Positions 3,814 to 64,000 of a stretch of 64,000 bases of DNA are shown here, in pieces. Both the position numbers and the translations under genes were made by a program. Numbering within the stretch: the first letter of the stretch is position 1; every line of letters begins with the position of its first letter. This DNA comes from Diospyros lotus. Its lineage: Eukaryota > Streptophyta > Magnoliopsida > Ericales > Ebenaceae. The notes under the pieces are model-generated. The model ran no database searches and was not told the DNA's origin. It was given only the letters and a program-made list of their open reading frames with translations. The stretch covers positions 32,435,316-32,499,315 of the forward strand of contig NC_068339.1 in the NCBI RefSeq assembly GCF_014633365.1, written 5' to 3'.

Positions 3814-4555
3814 ATTGGTATGAGAGCCCTAGGTTAGTTAAGTTATCAAACTTAGCTAGGTTAGCTTGGTTAGAATTGTTGGATGAAAACTTAGGGTAGG
3901 ATTACGGATCCTAAGAAAACACTTGAAACTTAGAAGAAACGATAAGGAAGCTCTAGGACACATATGTTTAAGGTTTCTGAGTAAAATTTATGTGTTATTA
4001 GCAACAATGGTGTATCAAGTGTTGTTGACTCATTGGGCGCATAGGATCGAAGCTCAAGGAAACTCGCAAGAGGAACATGTGGTTGTGTTTTTGAATGCAA
4101 TGGAGGAAATCATAGATGATGTTTTGGGAGTTCATCTGCATGTGAAGATTGTCCTTGATGCACCGCGCGTGATAATCATAAAAAAAAAAAAAAGATTCTC
4201 GAGAATTCCCTTATAGTAATGCGCCCGGGTAAAGCAGGGTGTTACAATTGGTATGAGAGCCCTAGGTTAGTTAAGTTTTCAAACTTAGCTAGGTTAGCTT
4301 GGTTAGAACTGTTGGATGAAAACTTAGGGTAGGATTATGGATCTTAAGAAAACACTTGAAACTTAGAAGAAATGATAAGGAAGCTCTAGGACACATATGT
4401 TCGAGGTTTCTGAGTAAAATTTATGTGTTATTAGCAACAATGGTGTATCAAGTGTTGTTGACTCATTGGGCGCATAAGATCGAAGCTCAAGGAAACTCGC
4501 AAGAGGAACACGTGGTTGTGTTTTTGAATGCAATGGAGAAAATCATAGATGATGT
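3690..4555 (+). repeat. 433/434-bp direct tandem duplication of LTR end, primer site and leader
   Basis: Copy 1 (about 3690-4122) and copy 2 (about 4123-4555) both hold the last ~120 bp of the LTR with its A-run, the primer site, and the start of the internal region. The offset is 434 bp before the A-run and 433 after it. At the junction the frame gatgatgt continues into tttgggagttcatc (copy 1, back into LTR sequence) or into accggggctac (copy 2, on into the internal region). Confidence 0.85.
3816..3828 (+). other. primer-binding site (tRNA-iMet)
   Basis: tggtatgagagcc lies 2 bp after the LTR end. It matches the standard plant tRNA-iMet primer site TGGTATCAGAGCC except for one base. The same site recurs in the leader duplication (about 4249-4261) and after the 3' LTR (14206-14218). 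Confidence 0.8.
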
Positions 4556-4930
4556 ACCGGGGCTACTAACAATTAGAAGATCTGGCGAAGTACCAAATCG
4601 ACTATCTTATCAACCAATTGGTAGGGGAATGGAAGACATATGCCCAGTGGTTATTGCAGGATTGGGAATTTGAAACATTAAACGAATTCTGCACAAGGAT
4701 TCGGGATCAATACGCAGGGCTGTATGGAGAAGCTATGGAAGATGAAGCTCAGGAAGATGTCGCTGCTACGGAACTTGAAGAATAAGAGGACGTCATCGAC
4801 TTCAGTATCGACGAGGAGTCCGATGAGGATAAAGAAGGACCTCCGGCCGAGTCTGACGATGACATCAGTATTAAGGAGCCATGGATCTGGAGGCTGAAGG
4901 ATTAGCTGAAGAAGGCCAAAGATTAACTGA
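4356..4930 (+). pseudogene. unusual leader ORF upstream of gag, broken
   Basis: Downstream of the second primer-site copy an open frame of about 65 residues (from 4356) is followed, after a one-base frameshift near 4573, by a frame that reads through about 4780 and then, past a TAG, through an acidic tract rich in Glu and Asp (about 4785-4865). The protein has Trp/Gln-rich helices and the acidic tail; I recognise no domain. The first part also exists in the duplicated copy (3923-4216). It lies before the gag and is separated from it by an AT-rich spacer with a (ta)n run near 4945. It may be a diverged gag N-terminus or a lineage-specific extra ORF; the sequence does not decide. Confidence 0.4.
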
Positions 4931-5315
4931 AGGAAGGAAAAATATATATATATATATAATATAATAAGATGCTATGTTTATTTTTTTGTCATGCTATGTT
5001 AGGATGTTATGTTTCGTGGTTTACTTTTAAGAAATAAGACTGTCCCTCTTTTAAGAAACGAGCTTTCCTTGAGTATAACTTATATTCATGGTTCACTTCA
5101 GATGGTGAATACACGATGACCTCAAGATGCGTTCAATAATGATTGTGGGAGAAGATAGGAAGATAATCTCGAGAGTCAGGGTGACCATAGAAGTCATCTG
5201 GGAGGAAATAGGAGGTACATTAGGGAATCAAGCGCTGGTGAAGATCGGTTCAGGCGAATGGAAAGATTTTTTGGAGAACATGCTAACTTACGTGAGTAAA
5301 GAGGAACCTACTCGG

Positions 5316-7884
5316 TGTAACACCCCGCTTTTCTTTTACCGAGCATGTCACTATGCTGGGGCCCAAATTATACATAAGTTATTTTTTTCATTCTTTCTCG
5401 GTACATAACTTAACCTTAAGTACCGAATCTCAAACAAAACCCCTAGCAAATCATTTAAAAATGCGGAAGCAATAATCGAAACCTGATAGGGTACATAATC
5501 AAATCACTTTATTTATAACATAAGAATTCGTATCATAATTAACATCATATCCTCAATATTGAAATACATAAATACATGGAGATTCCATAATATTATAACA
5601 AGGCTAAACATCAATAAAGCATTAGCCAAAACATATCTGAGTCAGCTCGCTGAATCCATCGGCTACGCCATCACGTGCCGTCATATCTCAACCTACTCCT
5701 TGCCTTAACTGCAAGCCTAACACTGGAACGTGGAATGTTCCAGGGGCATAACCCATTAGAAGATGAAACTTTTAGTGAGGGTCCAAAACATATATACGAA
5801 TGCATGATGCAATAACATGAACAACATTTGCCTTTAGTGTAACTTCCCTGGCTCGCAAGCCTGGCTAGGAATCCTAGGCAAATCTCGAACCTCTACAGGA
5901 TAAGCCCAACGTTATTCCCTCAACGGCCTTAGGGAATTACGGCTACACTTTGGGGGCGACATCCCATTCCCATGCACAAATATCAATGTGACAATAATAT
6001 CGAGCCATGCAATTATCACGACTTTCCATGCAATATGACAAAATGGATCATATCTTTCGTAAATATTATGCATATATAAGAAATCATATATTTCATAAAT
6101 ATCATTTATAATAAACAATCATATCATGTAGGATAGGAAAACACACAAAACCATGTTTAGTATAAAATTACTCACATTTTCCCTAAAGACCAAGATACCT
6201 CGAAAAGCGCGCATCGCCTTGATATGGGTGCCCGACCTCGATTCTCGTGCCAACTCTCAAACGTTGCACAAATCACATCATCTCGATCACCTCAATCAAA
6301 ATGATATTTTATCACTAAATATCCTTAATATTCCATTCATTTCATTTTTCTTCATTTTCTCTTATTTTTCCTCTTCGAAAATTTCAATAAATACCTCGGG
6401 ACTATTTTCTCAAATCTAATTTCACAACAATTCATTATAGGCTATGAACTTCAAGGGAAAAATATTGAACTTGCCCGGATGTTGCGTTTTCACGCAAAAC
6501 GAGGCTCTTTAGCTCAAAAACCGAGACATCGGGAATCCCAAATTCAAATCTTTTTGCACGGACCTCCGTAAAATAATTTTTCAGATTTTTCTATATTTTT
6601 TCAGAATTTTCCCAAGCCCCACGCGCCCACACGTGCTAGGGCGACTAGGCGCACATGAGATGCAGCGCATGACCGGCACGCACCAGTCATCTTTTCCAGC
6701 GCTCCGGTCGCCGACGATCTGAGATTTCCATGCCATCTTAAAGCCCTTTTCTAGTTGATCCTCTTGGCCAAGTTTGAGCCTCAAAGAAACACCGGAAGAC
6801 CTCCCATCGGGGCCTCGAACATTTGGCCAAGGCGTCCGCCCCAAACTCCGGCGACCTCTAGAAACCTCACCAAACCTCAACCAAAATTGCTCAAAATCTC
6901 CAGAATTATTCTACCTCTCATGGGCTTCAAATGCCCCTTATTCCCATTGCCCAATTCATTCGATTTTGGCCTCGATTTGAAGCTCCATGTCTTGGAACTT
7001 TCGGCCACTTCGAGCTCTATTTATAGGCGATCATCGAGCTTCAAAATGGCTTTGGCCGCCTTGCCTATCACCTTAGGAGGATAAACCTCCCCTAGATCGA
7101 CCTTGAGGCTCCCTTATCCGACCATAATCTCGATTTGTAGGTATCGACCATTCAGCCGAATTCTTTAGTCGATTTTTTTGCTTTTTCAAGCCACTATGAT
7201 GACTATTGTCGACCCATCCCTTTACCAAAAATGTTCCCCAACCATCCCTCATGAAAACCCAGTGGCTTTCGGCGACCCTTGTGGCCTGGTCGGTTTCCCA
7301 TTGTTGCCATCTTTGAGAAATTGCACTTTGGCCCCTCTAGTTTTGGCCTTTCTCATTTTAGCACTTTTTACTTAGCCCCTGAAATTTTCAATATTGCATT
7401 TAATACCCTCAAGTCCCAAAACATCAATTTGACCCCCAAAGATTCCAAGAAATTATCGTTTTGACCTCTCTCCGATAATTTCAGAAAACTGCACTTAGCC
7501 CGAATCTTCGTTTTGGCCCTAAACCTCTTCGTTTCTTCCTGAAACCACTGAAGGGTTGTTCTTTATGAAAAACCAAAGCCCCCCTCAAGCTTCCATTGAC
7601 TTCCTGGAAGTCGTTTATAATAATTCGGTATTGCAGCCTAATTGGCAGTTGCATTTTTGCTATACCGAAAATTGTTCCCGATCTGATTTCTTTCTGCACC
7701 ATAAATCCTATCTCAGGGTGCTCGTTAATTTCACATCATTTTCCTTTGGCATCTCGGCTCCAGGGCACTCCCGGTAGTCGATTTGGTCAATTTTTTGGGC
7801 TATTCAAATACCAATTTTCTCTGAAATCCCATTTTTCTAATAAATTGCTTATTTTGAATTAACCCAAATTTCTCGGGTATTATA
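5316..7884 (-). mobile_element. solo gypsy LTR inside gag
   Basis: 2569 bp, beginning TGTAACACCCCG and ending GGTATTATA on the plus strand, so on the minus strand it reads TATAATACC to CGGGGTGTTACA. It is flanked by perfect 5-bp duplications ctcgg (5311-5315 and 7885-7889). No primer site, coding or second LTR is present. A minus-strand TATAAATAG (7017-7025) fits the orientation. Its right part matches the right parts of the LTRs at 42168-44837 and 50252-52590 (for example the ccgaaaattgttcccgatc region near 7665), so it belongs to the same broad family. Confidence 0.9.
7017..7025 (-). promoter_or_regulatory. LTR TATA box, minus strand
   Basis: ctatttata on the plus strand is TATAAATAG on the minus strand. 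The same octamer-like box lies in the other LTRs of this superfamily in the window, always in the orientation deduced from the LTR ends. Confidence 0.45.
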
Positions 7885-8735
7885 CTCGGCATACAACCAC
7901 AATGCTGGAACGATTCCGACATCTAAGGCCCCCTCTGTTAAAGGGTAGAACTTGCGATGATCCTAGCTCAGCTAAGTATTGGCTCGAGCAAACGGAGAAA
8001 TTACTTTAGCACCTCCAGTGCAACGAGGAGGAAAAAGTAAGATGCGATGTTTACACACTGGAAGAAGAAGCAGGACAATGGTGGCAGTCTACCAAACGTT
8101 CAATACTAAGATCTCGTCGAGAGCTTGAGGACAGAGATGAGAATGTGTCAATCTACACTTGGGCAGAATTCAAGGAAATGTTTAACGACAAATACTTCCC
8201 TAAGAGCTGGAAAGAGGAAAGAATCTGGGAATTCATGAGGCTTAAGTAGGCTGACGAAATGTTTTTGAACCAGTACGATAACCGATTCACCCAACTTATC
8301 AAGTACGTGCCCATGTACGAGACTGACGAGGGTCAGAAGGCACAAAAATTCATTTTAGGGTTACGAGTGAATCTCCAGCAAGTTCTGAGTGGGTGGGATA
8401 TCGATTCCTATAAAGAAGCATTACACCAAGCCCTAACTATCGAAAGGAATCTGACGTGAGTAAGAATAATTAAGTTTGAGGAAGAAAGCAAGGGCGGTAA
8501 GCTAGGAAGTTCAATGACTCTACCTAAGGACGAAGGGAAATGTTCTTAGTGTAAGAAGAAACACCCAGGAAAGAGATGCTTCATAAGATGCTATGGATAC
8601 GATGAAGAAGGTCATATCGGGAGAAATTGTCCAAAGACCAAAGAGACGCCCCAAGTTGGGTATCAAGGAAAGATTGTATGCTACAACTGCGAACAACTAG
8701 GACATATCTCACGAGAGTGCCCATAAAGGTAGAAG

Positions 8736-9266
8736 ATGGAGCAACCAAGCGGGGGAGCGCAGAACGTTCGTCAAGGTCGTGTGTACAATTTAAATTACGA
8801 GGATGCGAAGATCAACCCTGTGGTTATCAAAGGTACATTTTTCTTTTCAAATATTCTCGTTCATGCATTAATAGATCTGGGTGCTACGCATTCATTTGTT
8901 TCGCATGCATCAGTAAACAGTTTAAAGTTAAAACTAAGAAAATTGGGTTATCAAATGGTAATAGCCACTCCTATGGGTACGACCCTAGAAACTGCGATAG
9001 GTTGTCAAGAATGTATTTTCAATATGGGAGGAGAAAATCTCAAGATAGACTTAACGGTACTGGACATTCAATATTTCGACGTGATCATAGGAATGGATTT
9101 CCTATCGGTATATGAGGCTAAGGTAGATTGTAAGAAAAAAAGAGTAAGCCTACTCCAACCTAGTGGAATGTGGGTTATGTTTCAAGGTCAGAATAGTAAG
9201 AGTAAGAGAAAGCGCTTAGGGCATGACTTTGCAAGCATTGCAAATAGCCAAACCCGAAATGAGTAA
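8736..9266 (+). pseudogene. gypsy aspartic protease
   Basis: The retroviral-type aspartic protease cleaves the Gag-Pol polyprotein. The active-site loop reads LIDLGATHSFVS at about 8870-8905, where the family has D-S/T-G; here Ser/Thr is replaced by Leu, so activity is doubtful. A second conserved stretch (YFDVIIGMDFL) follows near 9070-9102. The frame shifts near 9223 into the next frame, which carries the linker to reverse transcriptase. It is in the same frame as gag, past stops at about 8727 and 8733. Confidence 0.82.
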
Positions 9267-10660
9267 GAAAAGCCCTATGTTGAAAGAAGTAAGGATTGTG
9301 AATGAATACCCTGAGATTTTTCCCGAAGACTTACCAGGATTACCTCTCCATAGAAAGATTGAATTCTCAATAGACATTGTACTAGATACGCAGCCTATAT
9401 CCATACCTCCGTACAAGATGACCCCAACCGAAATGAGATAATTGAAGGAGAAATTGCAGGCCTTAATCGACAAGGGATTTATTAGACCAAGTGTATCACC
9501 TTGGGGAGCTCCGATACTCTTCGTAAAGAAAAAAGATGGTACCTTACGAATGTGTATTGATTACCAGCAGCTAAACAAGGTAACCATAAAGCATAAGTAC
9601 TCGCTACCTAGAATTGAGGAACTATTTGATCAACTTCAAAGAGCTAGAGTATTTTCGAAAATCGATCTTTGGTCAGGGCACGACCAAATAAAGATCAAGC
9701 CGAAAGATGTACCTAAGACTGCTTTTCGATCTCGATATGGTCACTATGAATATCTAGTGATGCCATTCGGTCTAACCAACGCACCTGCTGCATTCATGGA
9801 TCTAATGAACTGAACTTTTAGACCCTACTTGGACAAGTTCATGATAGTTTTTATAGATGATATCCTGATGTACTCTGCAAGTGAGAGTGAGCACGAGGAT
9901 AATTTGAGGGTGGTAATGCAAACATTAAAAGACCACAAGTTGTATGCCAAGTTCTCAAATTGTAAGTTTTGGCTTACGTAGGTAGCATTTCTTGGACATA
10001 TAATTTCAGCGAAAGGTATAGCCGTTGATCCAAAAAGGATAGAAGCAATTTGAAATTGGAAAGCACCTAAGACGGTCGAGGAAATTCAGAGTTTTCTTGG
10101 ATTAGCTGGATACTACAAAAGATTCACAGAAGGATTCTCGAAGATATCTGCTCCACTTACCCGATTAATGCATAAGGAAGTTAAAATTTGAATGGGATGA
10201 AAAGTGTGAGCAAGGTTTTCAAGAGCTTAAGGCACGATTGACCACGGCACCGATCTTAGCAATGCCAACGGAATCGGGGAAATATGTGGTGTATAGTGAT
10301 GCTTCTGGAACAGGCTTGGGATGTGTTCTAATGCAAGATAAACAGGTAATTTCTTACGGATCTTGACAACTAAGAAGGCACAGAAGAACTACCCAACCCA
10401 CGATTTCGAATTAGCAGCCATAATCTATTCCTTGAAATTGTGGAGACACTACCTATACGGAGAACAGTTCGAGATTTTCACAGACCCCAAAAGCCTAAAG
10501 TACATATTCTCCCAAAAAAAGTTAAACATGCGACAAAGAAGATTGATGAAGTACTTGAAATACTATGATTTTATCATCTTCTATCATCCAAGGAAGGAAA
10601 ATGTAGTTAGAGATGCTCTTAGTCGAAGGAGTTCAGAAATTTTGGTGAGCATAACGGTTA
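9223..10660 (+). pseudogene. gypsy reverse transcriptase and RNase H
   Basis: The reverse transcriptase copies the element RNA into DNA; RNase H removes the RNA strand. Visible are the PEIFPEDLPGLP linker (about 9310-9345), the [20 protein letters not shown] block (about 9484-9540), MCIDYQQLN, the fingers/palm with [13 protein letters not shown] (about 9760-9798) and the catalytic FIDD (about 9850-9861). A stop at 9811-9813, another at 9979-9981 and one at about 10051 break the frame, and an extra base in an A-run near 10185 shifts it. RNase H follows (YSDASGTGLG near 10296-10325, then THDFELAAI after a second frameshift near 10380, IFTDPKSLKYIF, RDALSRR at about 10629). The order and motifs are those of Ty3/gypsy. 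Confidence 0.9.
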
Positions 10661-12051
10661 AAGAATGGAGGATGATTGAGGAATTCAGTCACCCGACAGT
10701 AAGTGTCAAGCCGAAACCAACCAAAGGGTATTTGGAAAATTTAACCACCCAATCGGATGTGGTAAATCAGATCAGGTCAGCTCTTCAGACAGACGGAAGA
10801 AGAAGTCAATGGATAGACGAAAATAATCAAGTGAGGGCACCTGAATTCAGTTACCGCGATGGTATATTTCAATTCCAAGGAATGACCTATGTGGCACGGT
10901 ACATGGCGCAATGCGATACTTGTCAGCGCGTCAAAATTGAACATTAGCGCCCCAAAGGAATGCTACAACCTTTGGACATTCCTGAGTAGAAATAGGATCA
11001 CATCACCATGGACTTTGTGACCAATCTGCCTAGAAGTCCCAAAGGAAATGATGCTATATGGGTGATAGTAGATCTATTTACAAAGTCAGCGCATTTCTTG
11101 CCTATTAAGATAGGGCAGCTGATCCATGCCTTAGCTTAGCTATACATTGAAGAAATAATTCGATTGCATGGAATTCCTGCAAGCATAGTGTCAGACTGAA
11201 ACCCATGATTTACATCAAGATTTTGGGAAAGTTTCCACAAGCGTATGAGAACGCAGTTGAAACTTAGCACGGCTTATCATCCTCAGACCGATGGACAGTT
11301 GAAGCGAACAATTCAAACGCTTAAGGACATGTTAAGGGCATGCATTTTAGATTTCTCAGGAAGTTGGGAGAAGCAACTACCATTGGTGGAATTCGCCTAC
11401 AACAATAGGCACCATAGTAGTATTGGAATGGCCCCCTACGAGGCGTTGTACGGGCAAAAATGCAAAACTCCATTTTGCTAAGTAGAAACCGAAGAAATAG
11501 GATTGATTGGACCCGAGATAGTGCAGACCACTACCGGAAAGATCAAAATAATTCAAGAGAGAATAAGGACAAGTCAAAGTCGTCAGAAGTCATACGTTGA
11601 CCACCGAAGACGAAATTTTGAATTTCTAATCGGTGATAAGGTATACTTGAAGGTCTCCCCATTCAAAACAGTGATTCGAGGGAAAAAGAAAGGGAAATTA
11701 AGCCCAAGATACATCGGTCCATATAAAATTTTGGAGAAAATTAGACCAGTAGCCTATAGAATAGCCTTGCCAGTAGCATTAGCAAATATCCACAACGTAT
11801 TCCACGTATCCCAACTGCGAAAACACGAGCCAGATCCTACGCAAGTCCTTCGAAACAAGACCATAGAGATACGAAAAGATCTGGCTTACCTCGAAGAGCC
11901 AGTTCGAATATTAGATCAGAGGGATCAGGTCTTAAGAAACAAGGTTATCCCATTGGTAAAAGTGCTATGGAGAAACCATGACAAAGAAGAAGCCACCTAG
12001 GAACGCAAAGAAAAGATGAAAACTTCTTATCTGCATTTGCTTAATTTGTAG
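10661..12051 (+). pseudogene. gypsy integrase with chromodomain-like tail
   Basis: Integrase inserts the DNA copy into the genome. The HHCC finger is incomplete: only CDTCQRVKIEH (about 10915-10944) is left and the two His lie in a missing piece just before MTYVARYM. The core has [10 protein letters not shown] and [12 protein letters not shown] (first Asp), then the second Asp near 11194, but the usual catalytic Glu in the GQSERTIQT-type motif reads Lys (GQLKRTIQT, near 11296). Stops at 10945, 10987, 10993, 11197, 11206 and about 11479 interrupt it. The GPY/F-type region (YIGPYKILEKI, HNVFHVSQLRKH) leads into a chromodomain-like end (PVRILDQRD, IPLVKVLWRN). A TAG at 11998-12000 replaces a Trp typical of this motif; the frame would end at 12049-12051. 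The chromodomain is thought to steer integration to heterochromatin. Confidence 0.88.
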
Positions 12052-12085
12052 AATGAGTGATTTCGAGGATGAAATTCCTTTTTAC

Positions 12086-12095
12086 AAGGGGAGGA
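12086..12095 (+). other. polypurine tract
   Basis: aaggggagga directly precedes the TGTAATACCC start of the 3' LTR. It is the expected plus-strand priming site. Confidence 0.75.
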
Positions 12096-14203
12096 TGTAA
12101 TACCCAATAGTTAATATCAAAGGTATTTTTGGAAATTTTGGGGTCAAAATGGAATTTATCAAAGTTTTGGGCTAATGTGTAAATTCCAAAACTTGAACAA
12201 AAAGTTAAGTGACAAAACCAAGATGAAACTTGGAGGGTAAAAATGTTCAAAGAGTCATGGGATGTCAAAAACAAGAGATTTACAAAGGTGTTGGGTCGAA
12301 ATTACGCGATTAGGGGCATCTAGGCCAAAGTGCAGAATCTGAAAACTAATTGAGGGTGATCAGAATGAGGGTTTTTCTAGACTTTCAAGGGTGTAGTGTC
12401 ACATCCTAAACTTGTGGGGTCTAATGGAATAGGTGGAAAGTCCATGGTTTGAGAGATAAGGGCAAAAACATGAAATATCAAAGATTGATGGGTGAAAGTA
12501 CAATTAATGAAAATCAGGTGTGAAACCTGCAAATCACCGACCAACTTTGCGGCGACTGTCATCGAAACTACCAAGGAGCACCAAGATATGCTCCAGGCTA
12601 GAAATTTCGAGGCAATTTCATTGCCATTTAGCTTGACTTGAGGCTCGAAATGATGAGAATTTGAAGATTGGGGACCAAGAAAGCTTACGAATGGTCGAAA
12701 ATCCAGTTGAAATCAGGTATAAATAAGGTTCGAATGGCCGAGGGTTTCAAAACAAAATGAAGTAGATTGGCCGTGTTTTAGCAAGAATCGAGCTTCAAGG
12801 ATAGAGGTCTTTTGTTCCTTAAGTGCTAGGGAGGATTTCTGAAGATTTTGGGAGGTTTTGGTGTAGGTTTTAAGGGGTTTCAGTGCCTTCGCCGAAAAAT
12901 CGGGCTCGTCGAAGCCACGACTTGCAACTGAGTTTTAAAGGCTTTTCTAATGACTTTTCCAGCCATCTAAGGGGTCCATCAGTGTCGCCTCGAGGAGAGC
13001 TTCAAGAGCGAGTAGTTGTTTTGGCCCTTGGAAGTCATCGGAGTTGGTCATTGTCAAAGAAGACGACTACGCATGGGCTTCACTCGCAGAGGTTGGGGGT
13101 GGCGCGTGATGGACCGTGAGGTACCTTTTACCTTCGAAATTATTTTTATAATTTTCAAAAAAATATTTTAGGAATATTCAAGAAAAATATTTGGTGAAAA
13201 TGCATGATAGATAATTATTTTGGAGTTTTTAAGGAAAGGAATTTATTGAAAAATAGAGAAAAATATGAAAAAATGAAGAAAATGTGGGAGAAATAGAAAT
13301 GTTAATTTCTATAGATACGATGGTAATCATGAGATGATTTGACTGTTAGAATGAAGGATTGCATAATTTTCGAGGTGTGACACTTTTTAAGGCAAAAATT
13401 AGTTTTTTCTGAATTAAGGTGAATGGTTCTATTTCAGTCTTATCGTTGTGTTTTGATGTGTGCAGTGGATTCAGGCGAGCGGTTCTACCCTCCCGAGTTT
13501 AAGATTGCATGTGTTTGACCAATTCCAGCGAGCCGTTATACCCTCCAGAACTTGGGGTGTATCGTATAGGTGTTTTATTTACATATTTGTGGCATCGTAT
13601 GCATATTGATCATGTGGATTATTGCATCCACTGTTTTACTTGTGAAAGAGTTAGTGCATGGTACATGTTTTTTTTTCTCATATCATCAAGGTGTTGATTT
13701 TGTGTCTTTGTTATCGGGATGGGGTCCTCTTGAGAATGGGGCAAGGTTAATCCTAGTGATCAGGTGACGTGGATGGGTATCCAGGGATTAAGTATGTCGC
13801 AGTAAGGTCAACCCCAAAGGTGTGTGGAATGGATTTAGTGTGATACCTGTTGTATCGTTTTGAGGTGATAATATTTATTTTGATATATGTATAAACGAGC
13901 GCATGATAGTGTCATTATTTTTTTTAACGTTGTGATTCGTATTTTGTTGTGGAATACTATGTATGAATCCCGCGGTAGGGCACGGTATCTTGATGTTATT
14001 ATATCCGCTATGTAATATGATGACTCATTTAGTTTAAGACTATGAATCTTGTTAGCTAAGCGGGCAAGACTGGGGTTTCCGGGAGTTCATCTGCATGTGA
14101 AGATTGTTCTTGATGCACCGCGCGTGATAATCATGAAAAAAAAAAAAAAAGATCCCTAAGAATTCCCTTATAGTAACGCGTTCGGGTAAAGCGGAGTGTT
14201 ACA
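12096..14203 (+). repeat. 3' LTR of the gypsy element
   Basis: It begins TGTAATACCCAATAG and ends GGAGTGTTACA. It parallels 1408-3813 base for base apart from substitutions and two deletions, the second with the ttt microhomology at ggatttagtg (near 13833). A TATAAATAA box lies at 12718-12726. Unusually, a primer site follows it at once. Confidence 0.87.
12718..12726 (+). promoter_or_regulatory. LTR TATA box (3' LTR)
   Basis: TATAAATAA, the counterpart of TATAAATAG at 2115 in the 5' LTR. Confidence 0.4.
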
Positions 14204-14584
14204 ATTGGTATGAGAGCCCTAGGTTAGTTAAGTTCTTAAACTTAGCTTGGTTAGAATTGTTGGATGAAAACTTAGGGTAGGATTATGGATCCTAAGAAAA
14301 CACTTGAAACTTAGAAGAAATGATAAGGAAGCTCTAGGACACTCGAAATTACTTTAGCACCTCCTGTGCAGCGAGGAGGAAAAAATAAGACGCACTGTCT
14401 ACACACTCGAAGAAGAAGCAGGACGATAGTGACAATCTATCGAACGTTCAATACTAAGATCTCGTCGAGAGCTTGAGGACGAAGATGAGAACGTGTCAAT
14501 CTACGTTTGGGCAAAATTCAAGGAAATGTTTAACGACAAATACTTCCCTTATAGTAACACGCTCAAGTAAGGCGAGGTGTTACA
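14204..14584 (+). mobile_element. internally deleted second gypsy unit fused to the 3' LTR
   Basis: After the 3' LTR come a primer site (14206-14218) and leader (to about 14343) matching 3816 onward, then a 200-bp gag piece (about 14344-14545) matching 8000-8205, then the last ~39 bp of an LTR ending GGTGTTACA at 14584. The gag-to-LTR junction lies in ttccct, shared by gag (acttccctaag) and the LTR end (aattcccttat), which suggests deletion at microhomology. The layout LTR-internal-LTR-internal remnant-LTR end is what unequal recombination between two related copies, then deletion, would leave. Confidence 0.82.
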
Positions 14585-33013: not shown

Positions 33014-33049
33014 GTGAAGTACAAGATTTTGTCATTCTTTTACGAGATA

Positions 33050-36000
33050 ATGGCACTTAGTAAGGAGTGGATGAATCTTGTCAATGATCGACTTAATGAA
33101 GCTTATCAAATAGGGGTACAAAAGTTTCTAGATTATGCTTTAAAAAAGTTGGGTGCCAAAAATAAGATTCGGTGCCAATGCACAAAATGTTGCAATACTG
33201 ATCTTGGAACTCGTGAGTCTATTGAGACACATCTAATGATACATGGAATATCTGAAGGGTATACATTTTGGTATCATCATGGTGAACTGAACAATGAGCC
33301 TCAATCTGAGTCTGAGGATGAAGAAAATGAGATCTTACAATATGATACTAGTGCTCCAGATGATAGTGATGATGAGATCCAACAATTCATAAATGATTTG
33401 TACCCTCAGTTTAAAGGATTAGACGAAAATAATGAAGATGTTGAATTTCCAAATACCCAAAATTTGCCTGAAATGGAACCGAATAATGGAGCCAAACAGT
33501 TTTACAAGTTGATAGATGACCTTGAGCAACCAATATATCCTGGTTCACTAGTTTCAAGATTATCTGCAATTCTTAAATTATTGCATATAAAGAGTCTTGG
33601 TCGTTGGAGTAATAAGTCATTCACTATGTTGTTTCAATTGTTAAAAGAACTCTTACCTGAAGGGTCTTTCTTACCAGACTCATACTATAATGCGAAAAAG
33701 GTATTGCATGACATTGGTTTGTCTTATGAAAAGTATGACTCTTGTGTGAATGATTGCATGTTGTATTGGAAGACCGACAATGGATGTGACTGTTGCAAGG
33801 TATGTGGTGCTTCTCGATGGAAGAAAGATTATCGTAATGGAGAATTTAAGATGAAAAAAAATGGCAAGAAAATACCAGTAAAAACTCTACGTTACTTTCC
33901 ATTAAAGCCACAACTTCAGAGGTTGTTTATGTCTTCCAAGATAGCCTCTTCTATGAGATGACATTTTGATAAAAGAGTAGATGATGGAGTGATAAGACAC
34001 CCAACTGATTCAATGGCATGGAAGGATTTTGATAAAGTCCATCCAAATTTTGCCTCAGAACCTCATAATGTTAGACTTGGTCTTGCTAGTGATGGCTTTC
34101 AACCTTTTTCTAATTCAAGAACACCATATAGTATATGTCCAGTAGTGCTTATTCCATATAATATAGAGCCTTGGGTTTGCATGAAGCTGTCTAATTTCCT
34201 TTCGTCAATGCTTATCCCAGGACTAGATGGACCAGGGGATGCAATTGATACTTACCTCCAACCTTTGATAGATGAATTAAAGGAGCTATGGGAATTGGGT
34301 GTCGAAACCTTTGATGTGTCAACACGTCAAAATTTTACGATGCGTGCAGCTTTGATGTGGACTATCAATGACTTCCTTGCTTATGGGATTTTATCTGGAT
34401 GGAGTACAAAAGGAAAATTAGCATGTCCTTGTTGTAACAAGAATACTTTTTCGACAAGGCTTACTAACTGTGGGAAACAATGTTATATGGGTCATCGACG
34501 TTATTTGCCTATGAATCACAAATGGAGAAATAATAGGGTTTCATTTGATGGTACAAGGGAAAGAGGGGTCGCTCCAAACTTACTTTCTGGTGTAGATGTT
34601 CTGAAGCAAGTGCAAGTTCTTGAAGGGATTACTTTAACTAAATCTCGTCAATTGAAGACCAAGATAAATCATGAAAATAGGGGAGATAATTGGAACAAAA
34701 AGAGTATATTCTTCAAGCTTCCATATTGGAGTACACTTTTGCTACGACATAATTTGGATGTGATGCACATTGAGAAGAATATATGTGATAACATTCTTGG
34801 AACTATCATGAATGTTAAGGGAAAGACTAAAGACAATTTAAAGTCTCGGCTTGACTTAAAATCAATGGGCATACGACCAGAGCTACACCCAATTGTACAA
34901 GGGGACAAAGTTTTGTTACCACTGCAAGTTATGTTTTGTCTCCAAAGGAAAAGGATGCATTCCTTATATTTTTAAGAAAATTAAGGGTTCCTGATGGATT
35001 TTCATCCAACATATCTCAATGTGTTAACCTCAAAGACCACAAAATTATCAGTTTGAAGAGCCATGATTGTCATGTTCTTATTCAGCATATACTTCCTATT
35101 GCATTACGTGGCATCGTTCCTAATGATGTATGTGAGGCACTCACTGAATTGTCTTTGTTTTTCAAGATATTGAGTGGTAAGGCATACAGTATCGATGGAT
35201 GTACCCCATGGAGAGATATTTGTACAATTTGAAATCGTTTGTCCGTAATAAAACGCACTCAGAAGGCTCAATTGCTGAAGGATACATTGCTAGTGAGTGC
35301 ATGATGCTTTGTTCAAGGTACTTGCATAGCATGGAGACAAAGTTTAACAGGCTTGATAGAAATTACGAGGGTGATGTGCACAATGGAGGTTCACTTGTGT
35401 TCAACCAACGTGGGAGACTTTTGGGAGCTGGAATTACCCGTGATCTAGAAAATAATGAGTGGATTGAAGCATATATATATATTCTAAGGAATTGCAGCAA
35501 AGTTCAGCCATTTATTGAGTAAGATCCAACTTTAATCTTAATGTCACTTTCTTTTAATTTTGTTATACTCTATAATAACTATTTTATATCTACAGAGAGT
35601 ATTCTAGAATTCAATCAGTCACAGCCTTACAACTATCCAAGCAAGAGTGGAATATAAATTTTACTAAATGGTTCGAGTTTAGGGTAAGTGTATTGTGATT
35701 CTTTTTATGCTTTATTTTAGTATATGTGAATTCACTTAAAATAATTGATTTGTAGGTTGCAAGATTACATAGTCAAGATCAGAGCAGCATAGATGAGAGC
35801 ATGTTGTCATTGTCCCGTGGGTCATTAAAAAATGTGGCATTTTACAATGGTTACATTGTCAATGGGTATAGGTTTCATGTGGAACACTATGATAAAAAAT
35901 TAACGACACAAAATAGTGGAGTAGTTGTACTTGGTGATGAGGGAAATGGGAAGGATGAAATAGACTACTATGGCATTTTGACCGAAGTAATTGAGTTACA

Positions 36001-36439
36001 ATATCTTGATAACAATAGAGTAGTACTATTTCGATGCAAATGGTTTGATGTTCATGATACAAATAAAGGCATCAAGGTCGATAAATATGGATTCGTATCC
36101 ATTAACCCATGTCGATTTTTGAAAGGTAATGATCACTTCGTATTAGCCAATCAAGCATCCCAAGTATTTTATATGGATGACAACTACATCAAAGGATGGC
36201 ATGTAGTTATAAAAACACAACCTCGTGATTTATATAATTTCCCATTTCAAAAGGAAGATGACATTGATGATGCAAATCAAACATTTGAAATCAATCCTCA
36301 AAATGCATCAATCCCACCTGAATTTCAAGCTTCCAGCTCAATGGATATAGGTGATAATGTGCATTGGACAAGGAAAGACATGGACCCAATGGTCGTTAAC
36401 ATAACTATTTATTCAAAGAAAAGAAAGGAAAGAAACTAA
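33050..36439 (+). pseudogene. TNP2-type CACTA transposase, broken
   Basis: The transposase cuts element ends. Start chosen at the ATG of MALSKEWM (33050). Exon 1 (33050-35518) has the Transpos_assoc domain with a Cys cluster (CQCTKCCN) and HLMIHG, then an acidic linker, then the Transposase_21 (TNP2) core with NVRLGLASDGFQPF, ACPCCN, HNLDVMHIEKNICDNI. DUF4218-type sequence follows (LSPKEKD, QYRWMYPMERYLYNLKSF). Exon 2 is 35596-35683 and exon 3 35756-36439 (DUF4216-like: NVAFYNGYIVNGYRF, LFRCKWFDV); all junctions have gt/ag. Damage: TGA at 33959-33961 where the family has Trp, a one-base frameshift near 34922, and a frame-changing internal deletion near 35185 that removes part of the DUF4218 region. 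A product would not be full length. Confidence 0.9.
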
Positions 36440-57862: not shown

Positions 57863-58142
57863 CCCTATGGTTGCTATAGAGAAAAGCAACATCGTCCTTT
57901 GACATTCAGGAAGGTAAGCCCGAATAACCCCATTTTCATTAGTCTCCCTATGGTATATCTTGGTGCTGGCCATGATCTTAAGGAAGAAAAGAAGAAATAA
58001 GTCAGACAGGATTAGCTAAGACTAATGGAGAGAGAAAGCAAATTTTCTCTTGGAGAGGCTTATCACAAAAAGAGTCCTCCTGGAAATAATCCTTGTAGAA
58101 AGAACTTTCTCGAGAAGAAATGATCATATCAAGAGGACTAGC
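57863..58142. other. short unclassified stretch
   Basis: Purine-rich, no coding. It separates the solo LTR from the 5S-like LTR. Confidence 0.35.
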
Positions 58143-58368
58143 TGTAATACCTTAAGAGCCTAAAGAATGGTAGTATATATCGAGAATAAGTAAGGAAAGA
58201 AACAACACCAACTGGATACTTTTTGGGCTGAATGTAGGCAAAGAACTCCCGGGTTAAACGTGTTTGAGCTAGTAAAGTTTAAGGATGGGTGACCCCCTAG
58301 GAAGTTCAAGTAAGTCCATCAGGGTAAGTTGTTCCTGTCTTTCTTATCGCTCGATGCATGATGTTACA
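58143..58368 (+). repeat. short LTR with a 5S-rRNA-like segment
   Basis: TGTAATACCTTAAG to GATGTTACA, 226 bp, then after 2 bp a perfect tRNA-iMet primer site. Bases 58242-58307 align without gaps with positions of plant 5S rRNA covering its internal promoter (from AGAACTCC to GGAAGTCC), about three quarters identical by my reading. Short LTRs with 5S-like sequence and a Met primer site are the hallmark of Cassandra TRIM elements. Here, however, a gypsy gag follows. Confidence 0.65.
58242..58307 (+). other. 5S rRNA-like internal promoter region
   Basis: The C-box core aggatgggtgacc (58282-58294) is identical to plant 5S rRNA. The A-box part reads gttaaacgtgtttgagc against GTTAAGCGTGCTTGGGC. 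Pol III factor binding is an inference. Confidence 0.6.
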
Positions 58369-58370
58369 GG

Positions 58371-58383
58371 TGGTATCAGAGCC
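58371..58383 (+). other. primer-binding site (tRNA-iMet), perfect
   Basis: TGGTATCAGAGCC, the full standard site, 2 bp after the LTR end. Confidence 0.85.
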
Positions 58384-59291
58384 AGGTTATTTGAGGATTA
58401 TAGATTCCATTGGAAATTTAGAAACTATTAATTTGAGGTCAAAAGTTGAAATCCTTACGTTGAATAATGCGATAACTGGTAGTTATAAAAAATGATCGAG
58501 TTAGGAGTAATACGGTATCAATCGAGGATCCTAGGAATGATGAACTTAGGATGGTTCGATAAGTGTTTTTGAGAATAGAGTTTAAGTATTCCAAAGATCG
58601 ATTTTGATGATAGGGATCTCGAAGTAGACGTTGTGAAAATCAAGGTAAGGTTATTTTGAGGAAACGACTCATGGGAATGAGTCATGTATGCTTAGTCAGT
58701 ATTGACTTAGTGGATGAAGTGGCCAACGTATAGTCTTGGGCCTCGTAGAGGGTTTTGACTAAAAAATTTGGACGATTCACAATTTGGGATATACAGGTAG
58801 ATTACCCCTAAGATAGTTACGTGAGACCCAAAAATCTTTAGTAAGATAGAGATTACCTTTAAGTGAGTTTAGCAATGATTAGGAAAGTGTTTTTCTTTTC
58901 AAGATGGTGAAAACTCAAAGAAACCTGAATCTCATTGTCGAGATAAGGAAGACAGTGGTAGTAGTTACCACGGTCAATCTAGGAATCATACCGCAAGCGA
59001 TGAACGACAAGAAGAGGGATTCGTCCCAATGGAAATAAGCTCCACTGAATGGAAAGTATCTTAGAGGGCATGCTGATACATGTAGCAAGGAACGAGCCGC
59101 CAAGGCATATCACTCATGTGTTAGACCAGTATCGCTGACAAAGACCCTCGATATTCAGGGGAAGAGTGGAAGACGACCCTAGCAAGGTCGAGTTCTGGTT
59201 GGAGCAAACCGAGAAGCTGCTCTAACATTTGCAGTGCAGTGATGAGGAAAAGGTTAACTGCGCCACATTCATGCTAGAGGAAGAGGCTGGA
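58384..59291 (+). pseudogene. leader and gag fragment of the 5S-LTR gypsy element
   Basis: About 520 bp of leader, then from about 58903 (an ATG) decayed coding. The clear part is 59140-59291, reading DPSKVEFWLEQTEKLL, a TAA, then HLQCSDEEKVNCATFMLEEE, the Retrotrans_gag motif also found at 7960-8070 of the first gypsy element. The gag is cut at 59291 by the next gypsy LTR. The stop after KLL falls at the same codon as in the first element. Confidence 0.7.
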
Positions 59292-61929
59292 TGTAATACC
59301 CGGTATTACATGGTATTGAAAATAAATAATTTTTAATTATTTTGAAAGGATCTCCGATGGTTCGGGAAGCCAAAAGTCGGTTTCGAGAAATTAATTAATG
59401 AAAATTATCGAATTGACGACAGGGAGTGCCTTGGGACATGGATGTGCAGGGAAGAAGGCATGTAATTGGTGAGCATCTTGAAGCGAGGTTTATGACGCTG
59501 GAAGCAATTCGATTGAGAATAATTTTTGGAATAAATTCGGTATAAGCCTGAATGGGTGTCAGTATCGAATTGATGTAGGGGACCTCCCGGAAGCTGAGGG
59601 GACCCTAGGGGTGGTTCGATTTTGCGAGTAAGGCAACCCTGAAGCATCTTCGGGTCAAATAGAGGTCCCACGCAGGTGCAGGGACAAAATCGATATTCCC
59701 AAGTAAGTGTCGGTAAATAATTTTGGGAAAATCAATAATCTAATTGGCTTGAGGGTAATTAATTTAGGTCTTGGAGGGCCCAAATGATATTATTGGAAGT
59801 CTTAAGTGTAATTAGTAGATTCCTAAGTGAGATAATTAAGAAATTGGGGGATTAAGAGTGTAATTAAATTATATATGTATTTATATATATATGGGCGTAT
59901 GTATATATAGGCAGAGCCGTGAGCTTTCTGCCAACAATTTCAAAATTTGAAATTAAAACAGAGAGGGAGAAGTGAAATCACGAGGGAGAGAGGGCAGCCC
60001 GAGATCGTGACGGAGAGAGAGAGAGATCGTGAGAGGCTGAGAGCGAGAGCCGCAAGAGGAAGAGAGGGAGTCAGCGAGAGCTTGATGGCCGAACTCGGCC
60101 ATGGCGGTTACATCGCGCAGGAGACTTGAAGGCCGGGGGTTGCTGCAACGGAGGCAGCCGATGATGATACATGTAATGCAATTGGAGGCTGCCGGCGGTA
60201 GCGGAGCCCATGGCAGCGTCCAGCAAAGCCAGCGGCGGTGGCTGGCTGCCATGCTTGCAGGCGCGCCGTGTGCGCAGACTCGGTGCGGAAAAAGAAGGGG
60301 CGTGCACGAGAGGCGCGGGCTGCTGTGAAGGTCGCCGGTGCTAGAGGCCGCACTGTGGCGGAGGTGGCCAACCAGAGGTAGAGCGCGAGCAGCAGCGGTG
60401 GCCTGCTGCGTGGGCGCCCGCTAGAGGTTGAAGGCGATGAACAGTGCGCGTGGGAAGCTGGAGAAGAAAGGAGGGAAAAAGAAAGAAAAAAATAAAGAAA
60501 AAGAAAAATAAAAATAAAAATAAAAATAAAATATGGAAAACTGGGAAAAATAGCTAAAAAATCCAGAAAAATTGGGGAAAGCCCTGGAAATTAATTTGGG
60601 GCTCGAGGAGTGGGCCGGAGGTTCGATATGGGAGTCCGAGGGCATTATGGCAGTCCAATAGGCGATGCCAATATGGGCGATTAGCCGATTTTCTCTTCCA
60701 GATTAACTGAGGTGAGTTAATTAATTCTTTTCAAAATATTTCCTTTATGTGAGATATTAAATTGTGTAGAGTAATTTAATTGTTGGATTAAACCCTGGGT
60801 CGGGGTTGTTTGGAATTTATTGACGGCTGGTGTATGCCGTGGTTAGTGTTGTTTGGAGATAGTGTTGATGCTTAATTTTGCGGTGTAAGCAAAAACGAAG
60901 GCATTGGTTAATGCTTGATATGATGGGGTTTTGCTTGTTTGTCTCTAGGTTCGACCGGGAAGGCAGTAATCCTAGAGGAACTTGAGATTCAGACTGGAAT
61001 TCATGCTGAGGTAGAGATGAAGCTTCGAGCCAGGTAAGGGATGACCCCATGTGGAGGTGGCCTTGCAAGTTGGTAAATGTGTTTGATAATGTTTTTATGT
61101 TGTATTTGCATGTAGTGGTTAACACTTGCGCGATGCGAGATCTAGTGGACCTGTGGCTATATGGAGGACTAGTGTGGTGGGGGCTGATAGGATGATGCCT
61201 CAAACCTTAGTGGGTTGTGAGGATGAGTGGGCCTAGCCTCATTTGCATGCATTTGTCATACATAAATATGGTTATATTCATATTTACATGCATTGCACCC
61301 TTACTGAGTCTTTATGACTCATGAGGTTTTACCTCATGTTGTAGATGACGCAAGTCCAGATGCAAGCAGGGAAGGCGCCTGGATTCTGTTGTGGCAACTA
61401 GCGGTGTTGCCCGAGTTGTGTATATTATTATCTCTTGTATGTAGCCATGTGGTATTGTGTATGTATACCCTTGTGAGTAAATGTATGTGTTGTTGAGCGT
61501 CAAATGTATTTAATTGTTGTAATCATCATAGCGTGATAAATGATTGTGAGAATGTTCGTTGTATATGGCTTAGTTGGAGAAGCCGAGTTTCGGATCGAGT
61601 AAAGATCAGCGAGGTATGTTCTCATAAATCCCTATTACTCAGCGAAGTGTTTGTTATGCTAGCTTTGTGCTTGGGTCATCTTTGGCTTGCTATGAGGCGA
61701 GCTGAAGAGAGGTAAAGCTCACTCGGGTCTCAAGTCTTGATCCGTTGAGTTTTTCTTGTTTGAGTTTGGATCGATTCCTGAGTAGAGAGAAGGGAAGGAC
61801 GAAGCCTAGTTCCCACCTAGTGCGTTTCCTGTTGAAACATAGTCCAACCCTTTAGTTATCGTTCGTCGGGCGAGTAATTCGGTCGATTATTTTACTACTG
61901 ATGCCTGTAAGTGGGAGCGGGTCGTTACA
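59292..61929 (+). repeat. 5' LTR of the last gypsy element
   Basis: 2638 bp, TGTAATACCC to GGGTCGTTACA. It opens with a near-perfect palindrome (tgtaatacc-c-ggtattaca). A TATATATAG box lies at 59902-59910, followed by a purine-rich then GC-rich block (59940-60440) and an A-rich tract (60475-60530). Confidence 0.85.
59902..59910 (+). promoter_or_regulatory. LTR TATA box
   Basis: TATATATAG upstream of ggcagagccgtgagc; probable U3 promoter of this LTR. Confidence 0.4.
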
Positions 61930-61931
61930 AT

Positions 61932-61944
61932 TGGTATTAGAGCA
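61932..61944 (+). other. primer-binding site
   Basis: tggtattagagca, two mismatches to the tRNA-iMet site, 2 bp after the LTR end. Confidence 0.7.
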
Positions 61945-64000
61945 CGGCTAGCTATAAGAGTGGGGAAGGCTAGCGTGTTGGAATGCAAAGTATGGTCAAT
62001 TAAGTGAGTCGATGATGTCTGGTATGAATTCGGATATAAGTTGAAATGTCCTAGCTGCTGAGTTGGGGGCGAGAACAGTTAATTGTGATCTCAAGGTTTG
62101 GATGTGAGATTGATTGATGATCTGAAAAGTTGGACATGTGGTCTGAGGACCCTAAGGGATTGGGTCAAGCCATTGAGGCTTGTGATGGCTTTGCGGGTAT
62201 GCTCGGATATTCCTACTTTAGCAAGGATAAAGTACCCTGGTTTGAGATGATATACCTGTAAGAGGTATGCAAGTCGTGTATGAAGAACCGGAAACCCAAG
62301 TGTGGGTGTCGGTGTCAAGAAAACCCGAATAAGGCATTTTGGGGATATGAAGTGTTCTAAGGATGGGAACTCCTTGAGATTGAAGTGTTGAGACTTTTGT
62401 GGGGACACGAAACCGAAGCGTGACTAGTCCGGGAGGGGATTAGTAGAGTGTCCCTATATTAGGGATTTGTATAGCATGTTTGAGGGAATAGAGTTATCCC
62501 TTGGAAGTGGTGTAGTAAGGCTTGTGCGCTTGCGATAGAGTGAGCTATAGTGGGAGTCAGCTCGAGACTCAAGGAAATGAGTCGTCAGCGAGCTATGTGG
62601 TAAGCCCCAGGAAGGGGTAAGGTTAATTGCAGTAAGACTCTAAGGGGAGTCGGGATGCTAGATGTATGTCATGCGATGTGATCGAATGGTTAGGATGATC
62701 CCGGAGGGGATGAACCTAGGGTATGAGTAGACCCTAATCGGTTTAGGATAAGACGAGGTCTATCCTATGGAAGGGTAGGTGTGTAGCAAGTGGACCCTAG
62801 CGGGTGTTTGTATGAGATGAAAATCTCAAGTAAGTCGAGCTGGAATTCAGGGGAATCCAGATTTGGGATTAAGGAGATGGACATGCGTTGTTATGCGTGT
62901 GAGAGCCATTGGGTTAGAAGTCCTAGTTGTGAAGGGCCAAAAGACCGTTCAAGTGATTGATGAATGAGGGGTCAATCAAAACTCTCATTATGATGCTTGG
63001 GGTCTGGTGGGACGCCTAAGGTCGGGAGATGAGAAGTGAGTAGACCCTCATTGTGATGCTTGGGGTCGTGATGACGCCTAAGGTCACAAGACTCTTGATG
63101 GGAGACGCGGAGGTCACCCAATAAAGGGTATGAACGGGTGTGTGTGTGTGGTCTGAGGGCGATGAGTGTGTGGCAACAGGACATCCATGGGCTATGCGCC
63201 GGAGAGAAATGCCAACTTTGGATGCCGAGTGGGCTGGGGCATGGTGAGTAATGTGGAGGCCCCGAATTTTTAAATTCCAAGTTATGGAAGCCCGTGGAAG
63301 GCGTGTTGGAAGGCCAGGCCGGGCGTCGTGACTGAATGCATTCATGAGTGTGCAAGGAGAGACAAGAGGTCTCTGTTTACCTGGAGGGTAATGGTAGGTG
63401 CTCTATGGTTATGGGTACTGGAGCTTGAGGTAGGCTCAGCATGTTGGTTGTGGTTTGAGAGTCTCTTAAGCGGTAAGAGATGTAGAGTCTTGAGAAGCGA
63501 GGCTCATGGTATGAGCTTGAGGTTATCAAGGCAAGGATAACCAAGTAAGGTGGCTTTGGCAAGATGGTGGTGGAACCATCGTAACTCGGGAAAGCTTTAA
63601 GTAGCTTTGATGCTATGGGTGCAAGGCTCGATGTGACAGATCTGATGTTATGGACCGTGTGACAGAGGACTAATGAGTTGGCTCGCGTGAGGGCAAGTGG
63701 CCCATGGGCCTGCGCAATTTAGTGAACTGCAAGTGACGATCAGATGCCAAAAATCTGGAGCAACACCTTAAGAGAATTGGTTAGATGAGACCGATAACCT
63801 CCTGCAAGGGATAGGACATCTAGAATAATCCTAAGAAGGAATCGCAGAGCGCAGTAATGATCCGATAGATTAGCTGCCGAATAGGAAGCTTGGTGGAAAG
63901 AAGGGCTGTAAGCGTGGCGGGGTAACCATGCCAGGTTCGATATCAAAAGTTGGACCGGAAGGCTTGGAGGCACGCTACAGGTACAAAGCAGATTAGTGGG
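61945..64000 (+). other. long leader of the last gypsy element, no gene seen
   Basis: Over 2 kb after the primer site hold no recognisable gag. The DNA is GC-richer than the rest, purine-rich on this strand and full of short near-repeats such as gtaagactctaaggggagtc, ggagtcagctcgagactc and gaccctaatcgg. gag presumably starts beyond the window. Confidence 0.55.
62985..63110 (+). repeat. 63-bp tandem pair
   Basis: ctcattatgatgcttggggt (62984) and ctcattgtgatgcttggggt (63047) start two units 63 bp apart, both going on to gacgcctaaggtc. Confidence 0.75.

Follow-up and report, generated by a model that had tools for sequence, protein, structure and literature searches.

Organization of the locus

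The window, which is the whole 64,000-nucleotide stretch of Diospyros lotus DNA analysed here, carries near its right end an element whose LTR is of the Cassandra type and whose body is of a gypsy type, interrupted by a younger gypsy that runs past the window end. The features of this outer element are given below, where "extended" coordinates are the window numbering continued past the window end.

58138..58142, + strand: 5′ TSD copy CTAGC of the outer element, very probably a hybrid
58143..58368, + strand: Cassandra-type 5′ LTR, 226 bp, recognized by full-length genome matches and the canonical TRIM context of other copies
58242..58307, + strand: 5S-like core, the internal-promoter part of 5S, 50/66 identical
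58282-58291, + strand: C box AGGATGGGTG within the 5S-like core
58369..58370, + strand: spacer GG from LTR to primer site, the usual Cassandra state (gypsy donors, AT)
58371..58388, + strand: tRNA-Met primer site, 18 nt, where Cassandra sequence gives way to gypsy sequence
58389..59123, + strand: untranslated leader of a gag-only gypsy family
59124..59291, + strand: first part of a decayed gag with two stops, resuming beyond the window at extended 70381
59292..64000 in the window, whole element to extended 70375, + strand: younger nested gypsy, breaking gag
59292-61929 and extended 67754-70375: LTRs of the nested gypsy, 94.6% identical, TSD CTGGA
extended 77824-77828 (L034:3824-3828), beyond the window: 3′ TSD copy CTAGC

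The 5′ LTR has the termini TGTAATACC...GATGTTACA, and its limits, proposed in the initial annotation as a 226-bp TGTAA..TTACA repeat, agree with full-length matches elsewhere in the genome, many of which are paired at a spacing of about 415 bp. The primer site TGGTATCAGAGCCAGGTT follows after a 2-nt spacer and was likewise annotated correctly as a perfect tRNA-Met site, with 18 nt that pair with the 3′ end, CCA included, of the tRNA-Met encoded by a gene of this genome. This tRNA is presumably the initiator tRNA.

The gag fragment begins 756 nt past the LTR and has two in-frame stops. Its first description as Retrotrans_gag stands as far as kinship is concerned, with 59% identity over 56 aa (E 3.8e-20) to window positions 7908-8075, part of a gag matching Retrotrans_gag (E 3.4e-12), but the name itself was not returned by Pfam, in which the best match of the fragment is PNMA (E 0.011). 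Past the nested gypsy, the outer gag continues from extended 70381 and has zinc knuckles at its end (zf-CCHC, 5.7e-10; 72842-73132), beyond which lie AAAGGGGGGATAA and then an LTR start, TGTAATAACC, at extended 73540. After this start, the LTR is interrupted by an insertion with minus-strand reverse-transcriptase-like frames, by eye a LINE, and it closes with TGTTACA at extended 77823, followed by CTAGC. This 3′ LTR is of the gypsy type, with a 5S score of 15-18. Queries for protease, RNase H, and integrase gave no pol match downstream of the outer gag to 104 kb, and no second Cassandra LTR was found downstream in the 104 kb read.

CTAGC stands directly before 58143 and directly after the end of the gypsy 3′ LTR, an end that was set independently, through donor alignment. 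The chance of CTAGC at the aligned end is approximately 0.0006, or 0.025 when every one of the 41 TTACA in the stretch is counted. The two halves are from two families that meet at the primer site, where the switch occurs. Because CTAGC encloses both halves, a gag belonging to a separate, adjacent insertion is rejected. In the assembled sequence, the outer element is very probably a single hybrid insertion, and the earlier suggestion that a Cassandra LTR and a gypsy body form a chimera here is borne out by two families within one 5-bp TSD. It is highly improbable that a Cassandra LTR merely came to lie beside an unrelated gag piece, or was joined to it in assembly; the region is indeed heavily nested, but the switch sits at the primer site, the matching TSD brackets both parts, and the same kind of border occurs in two further loci, A and B, described below.

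The 5S-like core

The 66-bp gap-free 5S-like segment with its intact C box withstood closer alignment, 58242-58307 being identical to the plant 5S letters used as reference at 50/66 positions without a gap. The 5S score of the LTR is 53, reached by 0/2000 dinucleotide-preserving shuffles of the LTR (shuffle maximum 25), and the identity remains above chance; on both strands of the window, there is no other 5S-like site near this score, the next best having 24. The core occupies LTR positions 100-165 of 226, inside the 25-75% zone of Cassandra, and the canonical C box, given as AGGATGGGTG in the available text of its source (PMC10853983), is intact.

Angiosperm probes printed in the accessible part of another source allow a comparison for 5S positions 34-62 and 66-89, of which the LTR matches 18/29 (3/1000 shuffles as good) and 17/24 (0/1000 shuffles as good), respectively (PMC5974128). 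For the probe of 5S positions 1-30, the LTR match is at chance level only, and the window LTR therefore holds only the internal-promoter part of 5S. The Rfam 5S model, applied to the LTR alone, matches 58222-58321 with E 0.03 and 21.1 bits against a gathering threshold of 38, while over a 14-kb stretch the LTR site is not listed at E<=1. A small-RNA promoter in the LTR is also found in Ajax and Helenus, called "TRIMp3" and described as non-autonomous in the available text; Ajax resembles the window LTR in having only the promoter part of 5S, whereas no hybrid with a gag element is described there for either, unlike the window (PMC10886601).

The Cassandra family in the genome

The genome search with the LTR at 58143-58368, as suggested by the initial annotation, gave 42 matches listed from 4218 first-look candidates (40 scored), from which 30 Cassandra loci were taken, with L005 and L015 showing one and the same element. 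They are mostly canonical Cassandra, with gypsy interiors at the window, A, and B. The LTR family is an ordinary Cassandra TRIM of 226 + about 190 + 226 bp with TSDs and arrays, the latter at L021, L023, and L025. According to the available portions of the published descriptions, Cassandra TRIMs have a 5S core of approximately 70 bp with A box, IE, and C box at 25-75% of the LTR, a Met primer site, LTRs of 200-400 bp, and tandem arrays, and the canonical copies found here agree with this description (PMC10853983, PMC7215508). Where two LTRs flank an interior, its length is mostly 177-195 nt and its last part is a polypurine tract, for example GGGGGGAGAA, and perfect 5-bp TSDs surround 12/26 adjacent Cassandra LTR pairs. 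In the arrays L023 and L021, two interior types are mixed among units, with the starts GACCCCCGAGCC and GACCCTTGG, and at L030 and L026, neighbouring Cassandra LTRs are inverted and their order is broken.

Within this family, the window LTR is of average type. Among 59 full LTRs, the number of 5S matches in the core ranges from 34 to 55 with a median of 50, and GGATGGGTGACC is kept in 30. The identity of adjacent Cassandra LTR pairs averages 88.0% against 86.5% between loci, and outer-LTR identity is uninformative for dating or pairing composites.

The 30 loci, taken from the best-scored matches, contain 61 LTR 3′ ends, and the primer site follows 36 of them. Of these 36 LTR-primer-site junctions, 31 continue into a Cassandra interior, and the spacer is GG, as in the window, in 25 of the 31 Cassandra junctions. 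The five exceptions are the window, locus A (L010), locus B (L031), L021, which has a variant Cassandra interior slightly below the cut, and L030, where a 69-nt LTR fragment lies within a rearranged array. Gypsy interiors thus follow 3/36 junctions (2/35 without the window) in a sample picked by likeness to the window LTR. The initial annotation had held that short, non-coding elements at all other copies, with gag in an adjacent insertion, would speak against its proposal; the adjacent insertion fails on the common TSD, yet the interior is short and non-coding at those 31 junctions.

The 81 published Cassandras have two like LTRs and no coding remains in the available text (PMC10853983, PMC7215508). 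The window insertion differs from these in having gag remains with zinc knuckles and, opposite its 5S-type LTR, an unlike 3′ LTR of the gypsy type.

The gag-only Ty3/gypsy family

When leader and gag together (58369-59291) served as the query, 41 matches were listed from 541 first-look candidates (40 scored), and these best matches are 75-88% identical, self aside. The donor survey comprised 29 cut loci and the nearest relatives L071 and L072, 31 in total. By BLAST, the family's own LTR stands ahead of the leader in 28 of the 29 donors and also in L071 and L072, while the remaining donor, L046, has just the terminal TTACA there. The spacer is AT in 31/31 against GG in the window. No 5S-like segment occurs in 28 of the 29, whose scores are at shuffle level, and the 5S signal of L043 comes from a separate antisense two-LTR Cassandra that sits within the LTR of this gag-only copy. 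The donor 3′ LTR begins 2.0-2.1 kb past the leader start in 21/29, gag was matched in 29/29 with an intact zinc-knuckle motif in 22, and pol queries, integrase included, matched only L049. The body behind the Cassandra 5′ LTR belongs to this gag-only Ty3/gypsy family, in which the LTRs lack 5S. In LTRs, gag, zinc knuckles, and absence of pol (28/29), the donors resemble TR-GAG, the gag-only elements with terminal repeats.

The window primer site matches the tRNA over 18 nt against 12 nt in L042 and L045; L052 and L057, which are ordinary donors, also have an 18-nt site. Among L042-L070, the primer core is followed by GAGCGAAGGTT or, in L052 and L057, by the tRNA-like GAGCCAGGTT, as if tRNA copies were occasionally retained. 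The leader starts of L061, L062, L064-L068, and L070 are near-identical, and these copies, spread over many chromosomes, look like the product of a recent burst. As for the gypsy lineage, we guess at a Tekay-like chromovirus; Pfam found no chromodomain.

The initial annotation had also considered a coding relative or donor of Cassandra, that is, a family with both 5S-type LTRs and gag. The LTR, primer site, and gag of the window are indeed contiguous and in one insertion, but a Cassandra LTR stands directly upstream of the leader in 0/31 other loci examined among the best-scored candidates (best 41 of 541), the outer 3′ LTR is gypsy-type with its low 5S score, and the 104 kb read holds no second Cassandra LTR. 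The donor survey disfavours a coding member of the Cassandra lineage, which is scarcely credible.

Other elements were noted in the window. Positions 1408-14342 hold another gypsy with remains of gag, RNase H, and integrase and with LTRs that start at 1408 and 12096; round the end of its 5′ LTR, there is a duplication, 3688-4122 / 4122-4555, with 96% identity. This gypsy was rejected as the gag donor, being mere kin at the 59% over 56 aa given above, and a protein search with its gag returned six short relatives without context. At 33014-36439, three long open frames are by eye similar to a CACTA-type DNA transposon.

Two further Cassandra/gypsy composites

Two more composites of Cassandra and gypsy were found among the 30 Cassandra loci, one with a perfect TSD.

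Locus A (L010, C6:29551897): Cassandra LTRs at both ends, GAATT on each side
Order in locus A: Cassandra LTR, gypsy interior remnant, polypurine tract, LTR-like segment 9193-11296, full Cassandra interior, Cassandra LTR
Locus B (L031, C3:19090108): gypsy LTR 5513-7825 first, second gypsy LTR from 14889, 5′ flank TCCAC
Order in locus B: gypsy LTR, Cassandra interior, Cassandra LTR, gypsy interior, gypsy LTR

The gypsy remnant of locus A includes a C-terminal piece of integrase (SH3_Tf2-1, 5.4e-18), and no second copy of its LTR-like segment was matched. Its outer LTRs are 87.6% identical, no different from unrelated Cassandra LTRs (mean 86.5%). The gypsy interior of locus B has gag (3e-12), RNase H (1.8e-19), and integrase (2.8e-15), and its gypsy LTRs are 89.5% identical across 1213 bp. 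The spacer in locus A goes with the interior, AT ahead of gypsy and GG ahead of Cassandra, while in locus B it is GT at both borders; since the window spacer goes with the LTR, the switch point differs at base level among the three.

Origin of the hybrid

A two-family insertion formed via strand transfer is the likely and best explanation overall. More specifically, the structure rather favours a transfer in which Cassandra and gypsy cDNAs, packaged together, were joined at their common primer site. As the structures suggest, Cassandra and gypsy RNAs would have been together in one virus-like particle. The plus-strand strong-stop DNA of Cassandra, consisting of the LTR plus approximately 18 nt copied off the tRNA primer, may have paired not with its own primer-site complement but with the one at the 3′ terminus of the gypsy minus strand. 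Such a hop would yield, in order, a Cassandra LTR, the primer site, the gypsy body, and a gypsy LTR, exactly as the window element is built, and the ends of this product, TGTAA...TTACA, could be used by one integrase. Further hops could yield the three-LTR composites A and B and help build Cassandra arrays. Copying of the tRNA would give 18 nt, the same as the window primer site, if it halts at the modified A58; however, this length is also present in the non-hybrids L052 and L057 and is therefore no proof of the strand-transfer route. The window copy itself, its ends being unlike, is probably a dead end.

Post-insertion exchange at the DNA level, in which gene conversion or ectopic recombination put the Cassandra LTR on the gypsy 5′ end, is unlikely. 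Ordinary recombination of two insertions leaves unlike flanks, yet CTAGC in the window and GAATT in locus A stand on both sides. Gene conversion, for its part, would preserve the TSD, and both LTR families have a TGTAATA start, a TTACA end, and the common primer site, but it must replace a far longer gypsy LTR by 226 bp via a likeness of 10-20 nt per end. The sorting of the locus A spacer with the interior fits exchange at the LTR end; under strand transfer, a heteroduplex could resolve either way and leave the spacer with the LTR or the interior, as DNA-level exchange could too. Published surveys, in the available text, identified most complex insertions as post-insertional recombinants (PMC1950507).

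Strand transfer has parallels in the Triticeae, where complexes, and VejuL and BARE2 as cited with them, are explained, in the accessible text, by co-packaged elements fused during reverse transcription (PMC1950507). These complexes show one TSD round a composite, their three-LTR forms compare with A and B, and Cassandra is not among the examples in that text (PMC1950507). One TSD round a two-family composite, which is expected of template switching, was found in the window (CTAGC) and locus A (GAATT). The R-region switch of Sabot and Schulman, as far as its available description goes, predicts like outer LTRs, whereas those of the window element are unlike, Cassandra against gypsy (PMC1950507). 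In locus A, the outer LTRs are no more alike than unrelated Cassandra pairs. For unlike outer LTRs, the switch would have to fall in the second strand transfer.

Swapping of LTRs is already a known kind of event, and new here are the part taken by Cassandra and the two unlike LTRs. In soybean, Du et al. in 2010 reportedly observed that autonomous and non-autonomous elements swap LTRs, a non-autonomous element there likewise exchanging LTRs with its partner; no 5S LTR is known from that study. No Cassandra/gypsy hybrid is reported in the titles or abstract starts of the openly licensed papers listed, and an earlier notice elsewhere is possible. Among viral contigs, two 5S/LTR patterns gave 0 matches and the primer-site pattern gave 2, neither of them a plant LTR element.

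Implications for Cassandra and its helpers

The hybrid bears on the helper of Cassandra and hints at the kind of element with which Cassandra travels, a partner that LTR likeness is unlikely to reveal according to the available text on related elements (PMC10886601). If the hybrids were formed during reverse transcription, every one of them names an element whose cDNA was a particle-mate of Cassandra. It is possible, at slightly less than even chances, that primer-site hybrids are a fossil record of such particle-mates, here Ty3/gypsy helpers of an integrase-bearing and a gag-only kind, and that serial plus-strand hopping also builds arrays. Template switching is named as one source of Cassandra arrays by Kalendar et al. 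in the text available, and the serial-hopping reading of arrays extends their idea. A survey of junctions across plant assemblies is cheap and would let the helper question be tested species by species.
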